Part shown: positions 21,266 through 28,411 of the stretch, piece after piece
How the letters are laid out: the number at the start of each line of letters is the position of its first letter
Position numbering within the stretch: position 1 is the stretch's first letter
Source: Armatimonadota bacterium
GTDB taxonomy: Bacteria > Armatimonadota > Zipacnadia > Zipacnadales > JABUFB01
DNA: 64,000 bases
Assembly (NCBI GenBank): GCA_013314775.1
Contig: JABUFB010000016.1
Coordinates: 62,001-126,000 of the forward strand
Direction: 5' to 3'
The notes under the pieces: generated by a model
The model's database searches: none
What the model saw: only the letters and a program-made list of their open reading frames with translations
Told to the model about the DNA's origin: nothing
Position numbers and translations under genes: made by a program

Positions 21266-21730
21266 CTACCCGCCTGGCCTCGCCAGGCCCACGATGATGT
21301 CCGTGGTGTCGCTCGGGTTGGTGCTCCAGGCCACGTCCAGCGCGCCCGAGAGCTGATACCGGTGGGTGGCGTTCGGCCCCGAGTACGTGGGCGGCGCGTT
21401 CACCGGGACGTGGAGTTGGACCTTGAGCACCTGTTGCTGACCCGCCGACAGCTTGATCGGGCCGGGAATGCGCTGCTCGGTGTCCAGAGTCTGCACCCGC
21501 TTGTAGTCGTCCTTGTCTCCGGTCTCTTCGCCCTTCTCGTCAAATACGGGCACTTCGAACCGCACTTCCTCCTCACCCGTAAGCCTGACCAGCGCGGACT
21601 TTGCCTCGACGTCGCTGTTCGCAGTGATGTTCAGCCGGATGTTGATCGCCTCGCCGGGCATGTACACGAGCTTATCCAATTCCAGCGCCACCGTGGCAGG
21701 CCCACCGCTGATGCGGACCGGGAAACGCAT
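21266..21730 (-). CDS. Arrestin/Spo0M-like beta-sandwich protein
   Basis: The 154-residue product has no signal peptide. It opens with ALELDKLVYMPGEAINIRL, a pattern that in arrestin-N and Spo0M-type proteins marks the start of the immunoglobulin-like beta sandwich, and later has APPTYSGPNATHRYQLSGAL, resembling the P-T-Y-x-G ... Y-x-L element of arrestin folds. It is about the size of a single arrestin domain. GGGAGG about five bases before ATG 21730 supports the start. It is the third gene in a minus-strand series after the XRE-TPR regulator and a lipoprotein, with a hairpin in the preceding gap. Bacterial arrestin-like proteins are poorly understood; a cytoplasmic adaptor role is inference. 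Confidence 0.65.
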   Translation of the reverse strand: MRFPVRISGGPATVALELDKLVYMPGEAINIRLNITANSDVEAKSALVRLTGEEEVRFEVPVFDEKGEETGDKDDYKRVQTLDTEQRIPGPIKLSAGQQQVLKVQLHVPVNAPPTYSGPNATHRYQLSGALDVAWSTNPSDTTDIIVGLARPGG

Positions 21731-21824
21731 GGTTGCCTCCCTGGGGAAGCATGAAAGTCTCCGCGGCAGGAATCGGGTTCCATGCGCTGCCGCGACAGAC
21801 CTTCAGGAGTGGGGAACAGGGAGA

Positions 21825-21865
21825 GACGGGCAGGCGATCTCCGGTGCCCGGCGACGCTGCCCGTC
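21825..21865 (-). terminator. Hairpin between lipoprotein and arrestin-like genes
   Basis: GACGGGCAG (21825-21833) pairs perfectly with CTGCCCGTC (21857-21865), 9 bp with a 23-base loop. In the direction of transcription it follows the lipoprotein stop by 30 bases and could end or attenuate the message before the arrestin-like gene. Confidence 0.4.
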
Positions 21866-21894
21866 CCAGTATCTGGCGGAAATGGTCTGTCCGT

Positions 21895-22311
21895 TCAGTC
21901 TCTTTGCAGGACGATCTCCACGAAGGTCTGGCGTCCATACTGGTGGTCCAGGTCGCGCTGTGCGGCTCGCAGCCCAGATCCGGCAGGTGGTGTCACCTGC
22001 AACCGGTACCGGCCGGAAGCGGGGTTCTCGAACCGGAAGTAGCCGCCTGCGCCTGTCACCGTCTGTCCAACCCGGTGAGAGCCTTTGAACAGCTCAACCG
22101 TCGCACCCACAACCGGGGTCTCACCAGCGGCCGCGTTCACCGATGCGGTTGTTGGAGCTGCGGCCAGCACCACACCGCCGATGTCCGGTTCGCCCGGCGG
22201 CAGGCCGCCGCCGATGTAGCTCAGAAGCACGGCCTCACCCCCGCAGCCCACCAGCGCCGAAAGAACGAAGAACGCCATCAGTCCGGCGATGCCCTGACCT
22301 GTCGCCTTCAT
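21895..22311 (-). CDS. Lipoprotein with carboxypeptidase-regulatory-like domain
   Basis: The 138-residue product has a lipoprotein signal, MKATGQGIAGLMAFFVLSAL, ending in lipobox L20-V21-G22-C23, so the mature protein would be lipid-anchored. The remainder looks like one CarboxypepD-regulatory/transthyretin-like beta sandwich: GATVELFKG, TGAGGYFRFENPASGRYRL are its usual strands. ATG 22311 begins two bases after the stop of the XRE-TPR gene, with AAAGGGGA about nine bases upstream inside that gene's end, so the two are co-transcribed and probably translationally coupled. The divergent lipoprotein at 24089 has a similar beta-rich start. Binding partner unknown; location is a firm inference. 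Confidence 0.85.
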   Translation of the reverse strand: MKATGQGIAGLMAFFVLSALVGCGGEAVLLSYIGGGLPPGEPDIGGVVLAAAPTTASVNAAAGETPVVGATVELFKGSHRVGQTVTGAGGYFRFENPASGRYRLQVTPPAGSGLRAAQRDLDHQYGRQTFVEIVLQRD

Positions 22312-22313
22312 CG

Positions 22314-23951
22314 TCACTGATCCCCTTTCGTCGGGCGATCCATAGACGCGATTGCCGGCAGAGCCTGTCTCTCGCCCCAGAAGTAGCCGATCTCCCGCGC
22401 AATTTCGACCGCCTGCCGGGCGTGTTCACGCGCCTGGTCGCCTTTTTCCAGTCGGGCGAGCAACACCAGTGCGTCAGCCTCTAAGTCGCGGCAGCCTGCC
22501 TGACGGAGATCTTGCAGGACCGTCCGCAGCGTGTCCAGCGCCGTCGCGGGGTCATCAGCCATGCGGCATCTCGCGCGTTGCAGCCTGGCTGCAAGTTGCA
22601 GACGTCTCCACTGCAGCTTCGCGGCGCGCGACTCTGCACGGGCGATGTGGTAATCGGCATCGGCCGGCCTCCCGGCGTCGAGATAGGCCAGCCCCAGCGC
22701 GAGTTCAGCCTCGGCGAGCACGTGTCCGCGTCCGGCGTCAATCGCTTTCTCGATACCCAGCCGCGCGTGGTTGCGTGCGCCATCAGAGTCCGCCTGGCAG
22801 CGGAGCATTTCAGACCGCAGCACTTCGACCAGCGCCTGGAGACGTGCGTCTGCCGCGAGTTCGGCCCAGTCTCCAAGCGCTTCGAGTCTCGCCGCCGCTT
22901 CTGAGAGCCGTCCGGTCCGCAGGAGGACGATGGCCTCGTTCAAAACCGCCTCGCGAACCTGGTCCGGCTGGGATGCCTGGGCGGCGATCTCCCGAAGGTC
23001 AGCGAGAAGTCTTCCGGCGAGGCCGTAGTCCCCCCGACTCAGCGCCAGGTTGACGCGGTTGGACAGGATGTATGTGCGGGCTGTGAGGACATATGTTTGG
23101 GGTTGATTGTCCGCCTCAGCGATCGCCTGCGCCTCGTCCAGGTACTGCTGCGCTGCGTCAGGGTAACCCGCCTGATCCTCCAGCGCCGCGAGAGATACCC
23201 GACCCGCCCAGCGCGACCACCATGCGTCAGAATGTGCCAGCGCCAGGGCATGGTCTCGGGCTGCGATGAGATTGCCGGAAGCCTGCAGGACGCGGACCAT
23301 CTCCTGCAGGACTGACCTCTCAGCTCTGGTGTCACCGAGATCCCGCGCGGTCTCCAGAGCCTTCTCCAGTGACGCCCGTGCTCGCGGCAGGTCACTGCGT
23401 TCGAACCATGCGTGGCCCATGTGCAGGCGGGCTTCCAGGACAGCCTTTGATGCCCCACGATCTCGCGCTAGCTCCAGCAGTCTTGGGGCCGCCTCCAACA
23501 GCGCTGCGGTATCGCCTAACCTTCGGTATGCCAGGCACAATTCGCGGACCGTCTCCAACATAGCGGCGTCATGCCGGTCCTTCTCCGCTGCTCGGCGTTC
23601 GCGTTCCGATGCAAGCTGACTTGCCAATGCTTCGACGTTCGTCTGGAGTGCGTCTCGTTCCGAGCGCAGGCTCTCGGCGTCGGCGGTAGTTGCGGACGGG
23701 TCATCCAGGAGGAACCAGGTGAGAGGCTTTCCGCACAAGTCTGCAATGGCCTGGAGCCGATCAAGGGGAGGAAGGGTTGTGCCTGCCACGTAGTTGTGGA
23801 CGAGACCGCGCGTAACACCCATCTTCCGCGCGAAGGCGGCCAGGGAATCGTGCCCGGCCTCGGCGATGGCGGACTGTATGCGCGTTGCCAGGAGCTTCCG
23901 CCCGGTTTCGGTAGAGATGTCCACGGGGGGATAGTAGCATCGTCTACTCAT
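22314..23951 (-). CDS. XRE-family regulator with C-terminal TPR array
   Basis: The 545-residue product has an N-terminal helix-turn-helix of the XRE/Cro type at residues 24-80 (FARKMGVTRGLVHNYVAGTT contains the recognition helix), a short coiled coil rich in E and R (about 95-125), and then helical repeats with TPR character to the end (for example ARLHMGHAWFERSDLPRARA and AELALGLAYLDAGRPADADY). This HTH-plus-TPR layout matches RRNPPA-type and related regulators, where the TPR binds a peptide or protein ligand. ATG 23951 is used; TTG 23966 is possible and no ribosome-binding site decides. The promoter region upstream contains two perfect palindromes, one overlapping a TATAAT box on this strand, which suggests autoregulation. 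The ligand is unknown. Confidence 0.85.
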   Translation of the reverse strand: MSRRCYYPPVDISTETGRKLLATRIQSAIAEAGHDSLAAFARKMGVTRGLVHNYVAGTTLPPLDRLQAIADLCGKPLTWFLLDDPSATTADAESLRSERDALQTNVEALASQLASERERRAAEKDRHDAAMLETVRELCLAYRRLGDTAALLEAAPRLLELARDRGASKAVLEARLHMGHAWFERSDLPRARASLEKALETARDLGDTRAERSVLQEMVRVLQASGNLIAARDHALALAHSDAWWSRWAGRVSLAALEDQAGYPDAAQQYLDEAQAIAEADNQPQTYVLTARTYILSNRVNLALSRGDYGLAGRLLADLREIAAQASQPDQVREAVLNEAIVLLRTGRLSEAAARLEALGDWAELAADARLQALVEVLRSEMLRCQADSDGARNHARLGIEKAIDAGRGHVLAEAELALGLAYLDAGRPADADYHIARAESRAAKLQWRRLQLAARLQRARCRMADDPATALDTLRTVLQDLRQAGCRDLEADALVLLARLEKGDQAREHARQAVEIAREIGYFWGERQALPAIASMDRPTKGDQ

Positions 23952-23953
23952 AA

Positions 23954-23965
23954 TGTCAATTGACA
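23954..23965. promoter_or_regulatory. 12-bp perfect palindrome TGTCAATTGACA
   Basis: TGTCAATTGACA is a perfect 12-base palindrome just upstream of the regulator's ATG. Its right half, TTGACA at 23960-23965, could also serve as a -35 box for plus-strand transcription. A related half site, AATGACA, recurs at 23973-23979. It is a candidate operator for the XRE-type regulator. Confidence 0.45.
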
Positions 23966-23982
23966 ATCTGTAATGACATTGT

Positions 23983-23999
23983 GTCTATTATAAATAGAC
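23983..23999. promoter_or_regulatory. Palindromic operator overlapping a TATAAT box
   Basis: GTCTATT (23983-23989) and AATAGAC (23993-23999) form a perfect inverted repeat around ATA. On the minus strand the repeat contains TATAAT (23992 down to 23987), a consensus -10 box pointing at the XRE-TPR gene; no good -35 is seen. A partial copy, GTCTACT, lies at 23942-23948. The AT-rich block stands out in otherwise GC-rich DNA. Confidence 0.5.
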
Positions 24000-24014
24000 G
24001 ACATCGCAACCCTG

Positions 24015-24045
24015 TTGAACATCGCTCTCGTTTCGGGGGTATAGT
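24015..24045 (+). promoter_or_regulatory. Candidate promoter for the divergent lipoprotein
   Basis: TTGAAC (24015-24020) and TATAGT (24040-24045) are separated by 19 bases, a long spacer that would suit activator-dependent transcription. The start would fall near 24052, about 37 bases before the TTG start codon. The palindrome at 23983-23999 lies just upstream of the -35 box. Confidence 0.4.
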
Positions 24046-24088
24046 CTTCTTAGAGCCTCACCCAATTCTCTCCTCGGGAGTGGTAGCC

Positions 24089-25063
24089 TTGAAATCCGCA
24101 CTTGCGCTTGCTCTGCTCGTCGTTGCATGTGTGCTGTCCGGCTGTGGTGGGGGTGGTGATGAGGTCGCCGGGTCATCCTCTGGAACTGCCATGATTGTCG
24201 GCACCGTAACGGCCCCCGGTGTTGCGACGTCCGCTGCCCCTGAGAACCCAGCCGCGTACTGCCAGGTTACCGTAGAAAACGCCCAGACCCGCACCCGTCT
24301 CGGATCAGGCCAGGCAGACGGCGTGGGGCAGTACAGCATCGGGCCTATCCGTTCGGGTCAGACGATCATGGTACGCGCCACCCTTCGGGATGGTACCCAG
24401 CTCAAAACTCGCGCCCAGGTGCGCGGCGGCAATTGCCGGGCCGACGTGGACCAGGATAGCACAATCGCGGCCGCAGTGGTCGAGTCCCTGCAGGATGCGG
24501 GTGTCACCGATGAGGACCTGCAGGGCGCGGCCTACGACGTGTGTGCTCAGTATCAGGCGCGAACTCGGTACCATTACCGGACCGCCGGCAATATCCCGCC
24601 AGACTTCACGAACCCCGACGAGGTGGACCAGACCGCTGGCGAACTGCTGGAGGCGGCAACACAGGCGGCCATAGCGACGGCCGTAGCCACCCGCACACCC
24701 GGGGATTGCGACAACGCGGTGGCCATGGTGGAAGCGCGCCTGCGTGCAGGTGACGCCACCGCCACCGGTTGGGGCGCGGAGGTCCGCAGGCGGCTCTCCG
24801 TGGCGATGCAGAATGGTCGGAAGTTCACGGCCGAGGAAGTGGCAGAAGCCGCAACGGCCGCGGTCCTGGGCACAGTGCAGTCGGCAGGGGGGGACCTGGT
24901 CCGCAACCAGTTTGAGCAGCGGATACGTCACCATTACGCCGGAACGATGGAAGGGCCCGAGGCACTCGAGGTTCTCTGCGCCAGCGAGGGAACCCCGGAC
25001 CAAGTTCGCCTCAAGACCCAGCAACAGGTTCGCGACTGCGTAAACGTGCTCTTGGCGGGCTAG
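24089..25063 (+). CDS. Lipoprotein of unknown function, divergent from the XRE-TPR gene
   Basis: The 324-residue product starts with TTG at 24089; GGAG eight bases upstream and the resulting signal MKSALALALLVVACVLSGC with lipobox L16-S17-G18-C19 make this the best start, although the frame opens at 23960. After a Gly-rich spacer comes a short beta-rich domain (about 35-120: GTVTAPGVATSAAPENPAAY to TLRDGTQLKTRAQV) that resembles a carboxypeptidase-regulatory fold. The C-terminal 200 residues are Ala-rich helices with four cysteines spread along them and no family I recognise. It faces away from the XRE-TPR gene across a palindrome-rich region and is followed by a small exported protein. A surface-sensing or scaffolding role is inference. 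Confidence 0.78.
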   Translation: MKSALALALLVVACVLSGCGGGGDEVAGSSSGTAMIVGTVTAPGVATSAAPENPAAYCQVTVENAQTRTRLGSGQADGVGQYSIGPIRSGQTIMVRATLRDGTQLKTRAQVRGGNCRADVDQDSTIAAAVVESLQDAGVTDEDLQGAAYDVCAQYQARTRYHYRTAGNIPPDFTNPDEVDQTAGELLEAATQAAIATAVATRTPGDCDNAVAMVEARLRAGDATATGWGAEVRRRLSVAMQNGRKFTAEEVAEAATAAVLGTVQSAGGDLVRNQFEQRIRHHYAGTMEGPEALEVLCASEGTPDQVRLKTQQQVRDCVNVLLAG

Positions 25064-25179
25064 TCGCTGGATTCTGTAGTGGCGTCAGTCTGATTTGACG
25101 CAGTCGCGTACAGTGAATGCAGCGCAACAAACCACGGGTAGACTGGATGTGTCGGCAGCCGGAAATCAGGAGGGTTCCA

Positions 25180-25557
25180 ATGCGCGCCTCAATGGTGTTG
25201 ACAGTCGTGTGTTTCGTCGCCCTGTTCCCCGCCGTTGCCGCCATTGCAGCAGACATCGCCATGTCCGTTACAGTTGCTCCGAAGGTCCTAGTGCTTAGTG
25301 CACCTACGGAGTGGATCACAATCCACACCGACATGCCTCTGGCATCGGTGGATCGCTCAAGCGTCGTGGTGACCGCTAACGGCGCGAACCTTCCCATAGC
25401 TTGCGTCAAGGCCGATGCCCGCGGGCAGATGGTGCTCAAGATCGATCAGGCGGATGTGGACCCCTTCGTCGCTCCGCCCAGCGCTACGTTCGTGGTCATC
25501 GGAAACACTACGGGTGGACTGACCTTCGAGGGTTCGGACACTATCCGCGTGCAGTAG
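25180..25557 (+). CDS. Small exported protein of unknown function
   Basis: The 125-residue product has a signal peptide, MRASMVLTVVCFVALFPAVA, with a likely cut after AIA at residue 24. AGGAGGG six bases before ATG 25180 supports the start. The mature part, about 100 residues, is beta-rich (VTVAPKVLVLSAPTEWITIH, SSVVVTANGANL, ATFVVIGNTTGGLTFEG) and may be one Ig-like sandwich; the ending FEGSDTIRVQ is common in such exported domains. It follows the divergent lipoprotein by 116 bases and may share its transcript. A hairpin terminator lies just after it. No enzymatic motif is visible and no function can be assigned. Confidence 0.75.
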   Translation: MRASMVLTVVCFVALFPAVAAIAADIAMSVTVAPKVLVLSAPTEWITIHTDMPLASVDRSSVVVTANGANLPIACVKADARGQMVLKIDQADVDPFVAPPSATFVVIGNTTGGLTFEGSDTIRVQ

Positions 25558-25650: not shown

Positions 25651-26691
25651 CTAAAGCCCCAGCCGCTCCCGGTGTGTCCTGAGAACGAGTTCCAGTGCGT
25701 TCTCTATGATCTCGCGCTGGCCCGGATGCGGTGTGGGCGACTGATCAGCGATGCCCAATGGCTCCCGCCCCATGAGCGCCCGCAGAGAGTTCTCGACGCA
25801 CGGTCCCAGCCAGGCCAGCGAGTAGCCCCCCTCCAGCACCAGCACCAGCCGTCCGGAGCACGTCTCGTCGGCAGTCTGCGCCAGCAGTGCGGTCCAGTCG
25901 TGGAAGGCCCTCGCCGAGCAGTCCATCTCGGCCAGAGGCTCGGCGTGGTGCGGGTCGTAGCCGGCGGAGACGAGGATAAGATCGGGCTGGTACTCGCGCA
26001 ATGCCGGGGCCACGAGTTCCTGCATTACCCGGGCATAGTGCGCATCCCCCGCGCCCCGGACCAGCGGCACATTGATGGTATATCCGGCGCCTTCCTCGAC
26101 ACCCACCTCATCATACGATCCGGTGCCCGGGAAAAGGCCGTGTTCGTGGATCGACATGTAGAGGACATCCCTGCGGTGGTAGAAGAGTTCCTGGGTTCCG
26201 TTGCCGTGGTGGACGTCGAAATCTACGATGGCGATGCGCTCTGCCCCGTTGCGCAGGGCGGCCTCGGCTGCGAGCGCAATGTTATTCAGGAAGCAGAAGC
26301 CTTTGATGAGGTCTTCCCCCGCGTGGTGGCCCGGTGGCCGCACCAGGCAGAGCGAACGCGGGCAGTCGTCGCTCAGGGACGCCCTGGCCGCAGCGATGCA
26401 CGCCCCAGCCGCCGCGTACGCTGCCGCGCAGGTGTCCGCCATGGCGAGGGTGTCGATGGTGAACTCCGCGCGCCCCGTGGCGCAGGCGCGATCCAGGGAT
26501 GCCAGATGCTCTTCGGAATGGAGCCGGAGAAGCTGCTCGCGGGTGGCAGGCTCAAAGGGCAGAGATCGGGTATCAGCCAAGAGCCCGGAGGCGTCGAGGT
26601 GATCCAGGATCGCCCGCAGACGGTCGGGGCTCTCGGGATGTCCGGGGATGTTGTGCTTGAGAAATACCGGGTCGCTGATAATCCCAACCAT
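25651..26691 (-). CDS. Histone-deacetylase-family protein (AcuC/HDAC-like amidohydrolase)
   Basis: The 346-residue enzyme is a zinc-dependent class II-type deacetylase homologue. It contains RPPGHHAG (two active-site His), DFDVHHGNGTQ (zinc Asp and His), SAGYDPHHAEPL (second zinc Asp) and LEGGYSL. AAGGAG nine bases before ATG 26691 sets the start; the upstream frame to 26763 lacks one. Bacterial members remove acetyl or other acyl groups from polyamines, lysines or small amides; the true substrate is not predictable. The opening FLKHNIPGHPESPDRLRAI is typical. It stands alone, divergent from the symporter genes. Confidence in family is high. Confidence 0.94.
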   Translation of the reverse strand: MVGIISDPVFLKHNIPGHPESPDRLRAILDHLDASGLLADTRSLPFEPATREQLLRLHSEEHLASLDRACATGRAEFTIDTLAMADTCAAAYAAAGACIAAARASLSDDCPRSLCLVRPPGHHAGEDLIKGFCFLNNIALAAEAALRNGAERIAIVDFDVHHGNGTQELFYHRRDVLYMSIHEHGLFPGTGSYDEVGVEEGAGYTINVPLVRGAGDAHYARVMQELVAPALREYQPDLILVSAGYDPHHAEPLAEMDCSARAFHDWTALLAQTADETCSGRLVLVLEGGYSLAWLGPCVENSLRALMGREPLGIADQSPTPHPGQREIIENALELVLRTHRERLGL

Positions 26692-26881
26692 GCAGCGCGC
26701 TCCTTCCGGGAGAGTGCGGTGATTATACACGATGTTGAAACGAGCCAGTAATCCGGGCGCCATTGGTCCCTGAATCGGTTTGGTGCCAGGGAAGGAATCC
26801 GAGTCCCCTTAGCGAAACCCCATGAGTTGCTGACTGCCGCGCAACCCGGGCGATAGTGCCCCTCGCCGAGGTTCTCGCCTC

Positions 26882-28411
26882 ATGGATGCCCTCGCGAAAC
26901 TGCAGTTGCACACCAATTTCGGTGATGCCGACTGGGGCATCACTGTGGTCTTCCTGGTGGTATCCACACTGCTCGGGATGTGGGCGATGCGCTACATCCG
27001 CGACATGGAAGACTACGTGGTGGCTGGACGGTCGGTGCGCACGTACCTTGGCGTCGCTTCGATGATCGCTACGGAGCTGGGCCTGGTCACGGTCATGTAC
27101 TCGGCTCAGAAAGGCTTTACCTGTGCTTTCGCGGCCTTCGCCATAGCGGTGCTTGCGGCGGCTGCCGGCCTCATTGTGGGGATGACGGGGTTCATTGTCG
27201 TCCCTCTGCGGCACCACGGCGTGATGACCATTCCCGAGTTTTACGAGGTGCGCTTCAGCAGAGGCGTCCGGGTCATCGGCGCGATTATCCTCGCCGCCTC
27301 GGGTATCCTGAACATGGGGATGTTCCTCAAGGCTGACTCCATCTTCGTCACCAGCGTGATGGGGATGCATCAGGAGGGCCAGCTGAAAATTGCGATGACC
27401 ATCATCCTGGCCCTGGTGCTCTTGTATACGATGCTGGGCGGGATGATCTCCGTCGTGCTCACTGACTACCTTCAGTACGTGGTGATGTCCATCGGGCTGG
27501 TGGTCACTTCGATCCTGCTCATGCAGCATTTCGGGTGGAGCGACCTGGTATCGGCGGTGTCGGAACTCAAGGGTGAAGCGGGCTTCAACCCGCTCATGAA
27601 AGAGAGCGGCCTCGGGCCCACTTATCTGGTCTGGATGCTGTTCCTGGGCTTCATCAGCGCATGCGTTTGGCAGACATCAGTCATGCGCGCCACCAGCGCC
27701 GAGAGCGAAAAGGTGGTGCGGCGCACCTATGTCTGGGGTTCGGTGGGCTTTCTCGTGCGGTTCTTGATCCCCTACTTCTGGGGCATCGTCGGCCTGGCAT
27801 ATGTCGCTGGACACCCGTCTCTGCGCGAGATCTTCCTGCCCGAGACAGGCTCAGCAGATTCCAGCCTCCAACTTCGCGCCATGCCCATCGCACTGGCCAA
27901 TCTGCTGCCCGCCGGGTTCATCGGCCTGCTCACGGCGGGGATGCTGGCGGCGGCGATGTCTACCTACAACACATACCTGCACACCTGGAGCGCGGTGATT
28001 ACCCAGGACGTCATCGCGCCCCTCATGGGCGGGCATGTGGCTGCAAAGACCCGGATCAACATCGCCCGGGGCATCATGATGCTGGTGGCCGTCTTCCTGC
28101 TGGTCTGGGGTCTATGGTACCCGCTCAGTGAAGACCTGTGGGACTACATGGCCGTCACCGGCGCGATCTACTTCACCGGGGCCTTCGCGACACTGGTTGG
28201 GGGAGTCTACTGGAAACGCGCCAGCAAGGCGGGCGCCTATGGGGCCTTCATCTGCGGCTTCTTCACCATCCTGGGCCTGAAGCCGGTGCAGCAGATATTC
28301 GGCGTCAGTTGGCCCAGCGAAGTCGTGGGGCTTGCGGTGGCCGCTTCGGCGTGCGTCGTCATGTTCCTTCTCTCATCCCTGTTCCCAGACGCCCCGAAGA
28401 AGGAGGAATAG
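26882..28411 (+). CDS. Sodium:solute symporter (SSS family)
   Basis: The 509-residue integral membrane protein has about thirteen hydrophobic segments. Family signs are YVVAGRSVRTYLGVASMIAT (opening of TM2, the sodium-site helix), FYEVRFSRGVRVIGA and the LLTAGMLAAAMSTYNTYLHT segment of TM8, where S/T residues bind Na+. It imports a small organic solute, such as a sugar, carboxylate or amino acid, driven by sodium. ATG 26882 has only a GAGG about ten bases upstream, so initiation may be weak. The next gene, a 66-residue membrane protein, starts three bases after its stop. The substrate cannot be named from sequence alone. Confidence 0.93.
   Translation: MDALAKLQLHTNFGDADWGITVVFLVVSTLLGMWAMRYIRDMEDYVVAGRSVRTYLGVASMIATELGLVTVMYSAQKGFTCAFAAFAIAVLAAAAGLIVGMTGFIVVPLRHHGVMTIPEFYEVRFSRGVRVIGAIILAASGILNMGMFLKADSIFVTSVMGMHQEGQLKIAMTIILALVLLYTMLGGMISVVLTDYLQYVVMSIGLVVTSILLMQHFGWSDLVSAVSELKGEAGFNPLMKESGLGPTYLVWMLFLGFISACVWQTSVMRATSAESEKVVRRTYVWGSVGFLVRFLIPYFWGIVGLAYVAGHPSLREIFLPETGSADSSLQLRAMPIALANLLPAGFIGLLTAGMLAAAMSTYNTYLHTWSAVITQDVIAPLMGGHVAAKTRINIARGIMMLVAVFLLVWGLWYPLSEDLWDYMAVTGAIYFTGAFATLVGGVYWKRASKAGAYGAFICGFFTILGLKPVQQIFGVSWPSEVVGLAVAASACVVMFLLSSLFPDAPKKEE

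Follow-up and report, generated by a model that had tools for sequence, protein, structure and literature searches.

The window (the whole 64,000-nt stretch of Armatimonadota DNA analysed here) carries, at positions 21266–25557, five adjacent genes that a first-pass annotation had read as a single cassette for surface-to-gene or quorum-like signalling, built around an XRE-TPR regulator. The locus raises two questions: which of its genes belong together, and what might the regulator respond to?

Gene content of the locus and conservation of its parts

All five genes are present in the orientations first described, with the starts of REG, LPP, DIV and EXP set anew. The minus strand encodes the XRE-TPR regulator, REG (22314–23924; 536 aa; HTH_3 match at 1.1e-7 plus TPR matches), a lipoprotein coupled to it, LPP (21895–22311; 138 aa), and an arrestin/Spo0M-like protein, ARR (21266–21730; 154 aa; Arrestin_C 1.3e-9, Spo0M 3e-7). 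A divergent lipoprotein, DIV (24089–25063; ca. 324 aa; beta-sandwich and a helical C-terminal region), and a small exported protein without known family, EXP (25180–25557; 125 aa; start at ATG 25180), are encoded on the plus strand.

REG consists of an XRE helix-turn-helix (HTH) domain (residues 1–72), a 60-aa coiled coil (76–136) and a TPR superhelix (139–528). Its start is most likely the GTG at 23924 rather than the TTG at 23966, because a TTGACA-17-TACTAT promoter of the REG-LPP operon (23931–23959, minus strand; conserved in the nearest relative, G001) ends at 23931 and relatives align from MDL. Since this near-consensus element ends 7 nt before the GTG, the REG mRNA is predicted, probably, to be leaderless. 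LPP, recognised from Pfam, alignments, a structure model and its adjacency to REG, starts at ATG 22311, 2 nt past the REG stop codon. Its lipid-bearing residue is Cys23; the motif IGGGLPPGE (residues 33–41; codons at 22189–22215, minus strand, identified by alignment of 30 sequences across the phylum) and a CarboxypepD_reg/SdrD_B-like beta-sandwich (residues 43–138) lie beyond it. The score against CarboxypepD_reg (PF13620), 34.1 bits, is above the gathering score of 32.3, and distant LPPs score under this cut-off. The most likely start of DIV is TTG 24089; a GTG is found at the matching place in a same-genus relative. A Pfam search returned no family above cut-off for DIV or EXP, and an Rfam search of the window gave no match. 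Just past EXP lies a histone-deacetylase-family (acetoin-utilisation-like) gene (25651–26763, minus strand), with a sodium:solute symporter gene (26882–28411) beside it.

Each of the five proteins was searched against ca. 100 relatives, and REG and LPP profiles were run against 291 Armatimonadota genomes, 74 of which contain a REG match at E ≤ 1e-15. An LPP-family gene stands directly downstream of REG, on the same strand, in all 45 cases where the REG match reaches at least 400 bits (42 Armatimonadota genomes), and in many loci the two genes overlap by 4 bp. The partner, in most cases a lipoprotein, is an exported protein of ca. 135–340 aa that contains a folded domain. DIV was found in six genomes, never away from REG, which it adjoins in 6 of the 10 REG-bearing genomes of the order. 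Co-occurrence of the regulator with both lipoproteins, which had been proposed as a test of the cassette, is thus complete for REG and LPP and only partial for DIV. The core unit is two genes, REG and LPP, joined by DIV in roughly half of the order.

The remaining two genes behave differently. EXP is at the locus in three genomes and elsewhere in six, and ARR, among the genomes searched, is linked in just one other member of the genus and unlinked in G002; both are probably bystanders. Two congeneric genomes do have the five genes side by side, as a five-gene surface-signalling cassette would require, but neither ARR nor EXP is a conserved member of the locus; this refutes the cassette as a unit beyond the genus, and we consider it a highly improbable explanation. 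In the nearest relative (L029/L031, G001:C330:1127-1581), the ARR gene is broken into two frames, by either real decay or an assembly error.

The named relatives come from Zipacnadia/WS1 and other Armatimonadota: across 84,980 bacterial and archaeal species, scanned with a single peptide pattern that divergent HTHs would escape, all confirmed relatives that bear a taxon name are Armatimonadota.

A conserved palindrome between REG and DIV

The region shared by the divergent genes had been described as palindrome-rich. The palindromes are real, and one of them, the 17-bp sequence GTCTATTATAAATAGAC (23983–23999), is a phylogenetically conserved predicted operator. Using a symmetrical position weight matrix (PWM) scored leave-one-out, we found that its consensus, GTCTAG-N5-CTAGAC, precedes REG in each of the 10 Zipacnadia and in about a dozen other lineages; the same matrix did not find it in Chthonomonas-type lineages. 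Twenty-six sites fall between −330 and +60 relative to REG starts, compared with three in 438 kb of flanking DNA. Genome-wide occurrence was assessed by pattern scans. In the 6.1-Mb genome from which the window comes, GTCTA-N7-TAGAC has a single site, the one between REG and DIV, compared with 10 sites for the reversed control pattern. The strict form GTCTAG-N5-CTAKAC has eight matches in 36 genomes, all of them ahead of either REG (six) or a lipoprotein gene (two: a DUF4382 lipoprotein, L155, and an uncharacterised one, L154).

Because the operator core occurs once in the window's genome, a global REG regulon is unsupported here. Elsewhere, the operator is found near the starts of unlinked lipoprotein genes L154 (G044), L170 (G258) and L169 (G259), two of which encode DUF4382 proteins, and it is possible that the regulon is wider in these lineages. 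A near form of the operator precedes a DUF4382 gene in a second genus (G259), and in G013 and G081 the divergent neighbour of REG is itself a DUF4382 lipoprotein. We rejected DUF4382 as a general target, since a convincing operator was seen only in G258, G259 and at the divergent G013 gene, most other DUF4382 genes being without it; two weak matches near score 8, in G044 and G059, were left out of this tally.

The position of the operator suggests how it may act. In the window, its centre is at −61 from the predicted start of DIV, which has a TGAACA-18-TATAGT promoter (24016–24045, plus strand), and at −67 from the predicted start of REG. Across Zipacnadia, the centre precedes the REG start by 59–70 bp and, in six loci, the predicted start of the divergent gene by 60–61 bp, the −35 elements there being mostly poor; the −60/−61 spacing to the divergent gene recurs in L052, L059, L090, L094 and L095. 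Lineages f24 and f41 have an operator that overlaps with the −10 element. A site ca. 60 bp upstream of the start is the classical position of an activator, and overlap with −10 that of a repressor. The −61 and −67 positions therefore suggest activation by REG in the window's order, the overlap with −10 suggests repression in the other lineages, and, since operator positions differ, the sign of regulation may differ between lineages as well. DIV is likely a target gene of REG.

A separate feature was observed in Chthonomonas-type REG mRNAs: a C-rich leader, ca. 95 nt before the REG start, is conserved between a TATAAT box and the start codon and contains runs such as CCCCCACCCCCC, with GGC..GCGC after them (L100, L106–L109, L111, L113, L114, L117, L124 and L125). 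It is possibly an RNA control element.

The lipoprotein tag and the groove of REG

In the phylum-wide alignment of LPPs (n = 30), mean column identity is 23%, yet all 30 sequences have G34, G35 and P38, and 29 of them have G40. These residues belong to a near-invariant tag, TGG[GS][ILV]P[PI]G ([FY]-[TSD]-G-G-[GSH]-[ILVF]-P-[PIT]-G over all 30 LPPs), which is usually within ca. 10 residues C-terminal to the lipid cysteine, in a predicted disordered tether. In the AlphaFold model of LPP, the tag lies at pLDDT < 50 ahead of the beta-sandwich, and the tether around it is presumably disordered. The tag was found downstream of all of the ca. 64 inspected REG homologues that bear an HTH and keep the groove described below. 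In Fimbriimonadaceae-like lineages (f21, f37 and f38), it takes the form GEG[ND]IP[IVL]G or GDGSIP[IV]G, and 18 of the 18 REG homologues inspected there have such a variant (GEG[ND]IPxG or GDGSIPxG) downstream.

In 1.16 Mb of retrieved sequence, 60 occurrences of the combination of lipobox and tag lie next to REG and a single one lies elsewhere. LPP-like lipoproteins unlinked to REG, including one in the window's own genome, are without the tag. It is retained in L134–136, where the C-terminal domain of LPP has been swapped for a different, helical one, and in L139 and L183, which have no recognisable lipobox (an apparent loss of lipidation). Most genomes of the order, REG-less ones included, also encode a second family of LPP-like lipoproteins (L128; G000:C2:243500-256500), which has no tag.

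The AlphaFold2 model of REG (mean pLDDT 95) comprises the HTH, a 60-residue helix and the TPR superhelix. Its fold matches (VIA-align Z) include APC5 (32, the highest score), MalT domain III (29.5), peptide-bound Rap (28.6), NprR (27.4) and AimR (ca. 25). A TPR match alone does not establish function; TPR solenoids look alike whatever their ligand. The most conserved polar TPR residues of REG, chosen by conservation ahead of any comparison with the tag, are Q207, W239, Y285, N289, N292, Q322, E325 and N329; according to helix assignment from sequence and DSSP, all of them lie on inner TPR A-helices. They are retained in REGs paired with a tag and largely gone in LPP-less paralogues (L080, L141–144, L147 and L210–213). 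Two HTH-less homologues, L076:7998-9584 (G045) and L214 (G044), keep most of the groove and stand beside a lipoprotein tagged GGSIPDG; it follows that the association of TPR protein and lipoprotein is independent of DNA binding.

Groove residues also shift with the tag. DGGH tags pair with Q322E, GEG[ND] tags mostly with N292S and N329Q, GDGS tags with N289T/I and N292D, and the GGSIPDG tag with W239C. Over 63 pairs, tag distance correlates with groove distance (r 0.47; partial r 0.30 after removal of overall TPR distance), and none of 1500 conservation-matched sets of TPR positions reached either value. Since each tag class is largely one clade, the covariation amounts to about four independent changes; it is suggestive but falls short of proof.

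A job outside the cytoplasm could explain the strict conservation of the tag equally well. REG might control a conserved lipoprotein operon and respond to some small molecule or protein, while the tag, unread by REG, works outside the cytoplasm in docking or cleavage, for which a membrane-proximal, predicted disordered tether is a natural site. TPR regulators can take non-peptide ligands (MalT binds maltotriose), and autoregulation alone would account for both the linkage and the operator. This explanation, which we regard as possible but doubtful, leaves unaccounted for the groove residues that shift with the tag, the loss of the groove in LPP-less paralogues and the persistence of HTH-less TPR homologues L076 and L214 beside tagged lipoproteins.

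What REG may read, and the nearest known systems

Our preferred reading, which we judge to stand about midway between doubtful and probable, is that REG and LPP form an autoregulated and self-contained sensing pair, in which REG is predicted to bind the operator and its TPR groove to read the LPP tag. REG would be a cytoplasmic one-component regulator that acts on the 17-bp operator to control its own REG-LPP operon and other surface-lipoprotein genes (here DIV), and the concave groove of its superhelix would recognise the tag of the partner lipoprotein, much as RRNPPA receptors recognise peptides. What the computations establish is the two-gene unit, the tag, the operator with its positions and the groove conservation that covaries with the tag; binding of operator and tag by REG, and the direction of regulation and sensing, are inferred. 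Since REG stays in the cytoplasm and mature LPP lies outside it, contact would need either an unexported precursor or re-import. The likeliest contact would be with the LPP precursor before export, with return of a cleaved tag into the cell as the alternative route; the precursor is favoured over a released pheromone because the tag is invariant and lies close behind the signal peptide. REG could then report lipoprotein production relative to the speed of export, and expression of lipoprotein genes would be matched to export capacity. The fuller proposal, that REG gauges unexported LPP in the cytoplasm through the tether tag and so forms a phylum-wide, secretion-coupled transcription switch with an RRNPPA-like receptor that takes part of a structural lipoprotein, rather than a pheromone, as its ligand, is put forward tentatively.

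Alternatively, the tag could act as a pheromone in RRNPPA style: once cut from exported LPP and set free, it would return to the cytoplasm through an oligopeptide transporter and there be bound by REG. The fold of REG is like those of Rap, NprR and AimR, the gene order runs from receptor to exported ligand candidate, and lipoprotein signal peptides give rise to some Firmicutes signalling peptides (PMC4873490). The tag, however, lies in the mature part of LPP, outside the signal peptide, and is near-invariant over the whole phylum, unlike diversifying pheromones, and it is carried by a folded domain protein in place of a short propeptide. A pheromone is on these grounds unlikely, and the suggestion of species-specific quorum sensing is left unsupported. 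We also rejected a pheromone within the LPP signal peptide as a general feature, since signal peptides vary freely and the mature tag does not. As for surface-to-gene signalling, the link between the XRE-TPR regulator and the adjacent lipoprotein is its best supported part, given the motif, groove and operator data, and its five-gene scope has been given up.

Among known systems, the RRNPPA family (Rap, Rgg, NprR, PlcR, PrgX and AimR) is the nearest to REG-LPP. Like its transcription-factor members, REG combines an XRE-type HTH with TPRs; the superhelices are similar (Z ca. 25–29 to Rap, NprR and AimR), conserved polar/Asn residues line the inner TPR helices, and an exported ligand candidate is encoded beside the receptor. 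REG differs in its ca. 390-aa TPR array with a 60-aa coiled coil, in its partner, a folded lipoprotein whose internal tag is invariant, instead of a short variable propeptide, and in its host phylum, Armatimonadota, the surveyed RRNPPA proteins being from Firmicutes, almost all Bacilli (PMC9765709). The sequence match of REG to RapJ (4gyo) has an E-value of 4.7e-9, but it is outscored by a wide margin by those to GPSM2/LGN and designed TPRs. We do not file REG under RRNPPA, because no short secreted propeptide gene adjoins it, the neighbour being a folded exported protein, and because binding of the tag peptide by REG is only predicted.

MalT, whose domain III is the closest non-eukaryotic fold match to the REG TPR, is also a one-component transcription factor. 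An NTPase domain and a LuxR-type HTH set it apart from REG, whose HTH is of the XRE type and which lacks an NTPase: neither MalT-family part was detected in REG by Pfam, and the model contains only HTH, long helix and TPR. The beta-sandwich of LPP resembles CarboxypepD_reg, SdrD_B and CnaB-like surface domains, families for which we know of neither a TGGSIPPG motif in a tether nor a dedicated regulator. In RseB-type systems, an envelope protein works with a cognate regulator, as it would here, but the REG-LPP unit has no transmembrane transducer. We found no description of the REG-LPP pair in the open-access literature.

The pair is thus an apparently undescribed regulatory unit, kept across a little-studied phylum, with a defined operator, tag and groove residues. 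Its features suggest a self-sensing circuit, in which REG would recognise the LPP tag and control surface-lipoprotein genes. If the groove does read the tag, peptide-reading TPR regulators would reach past Firmicutes and past pheromones, and would also sense the cell's own lipoprotein supply.
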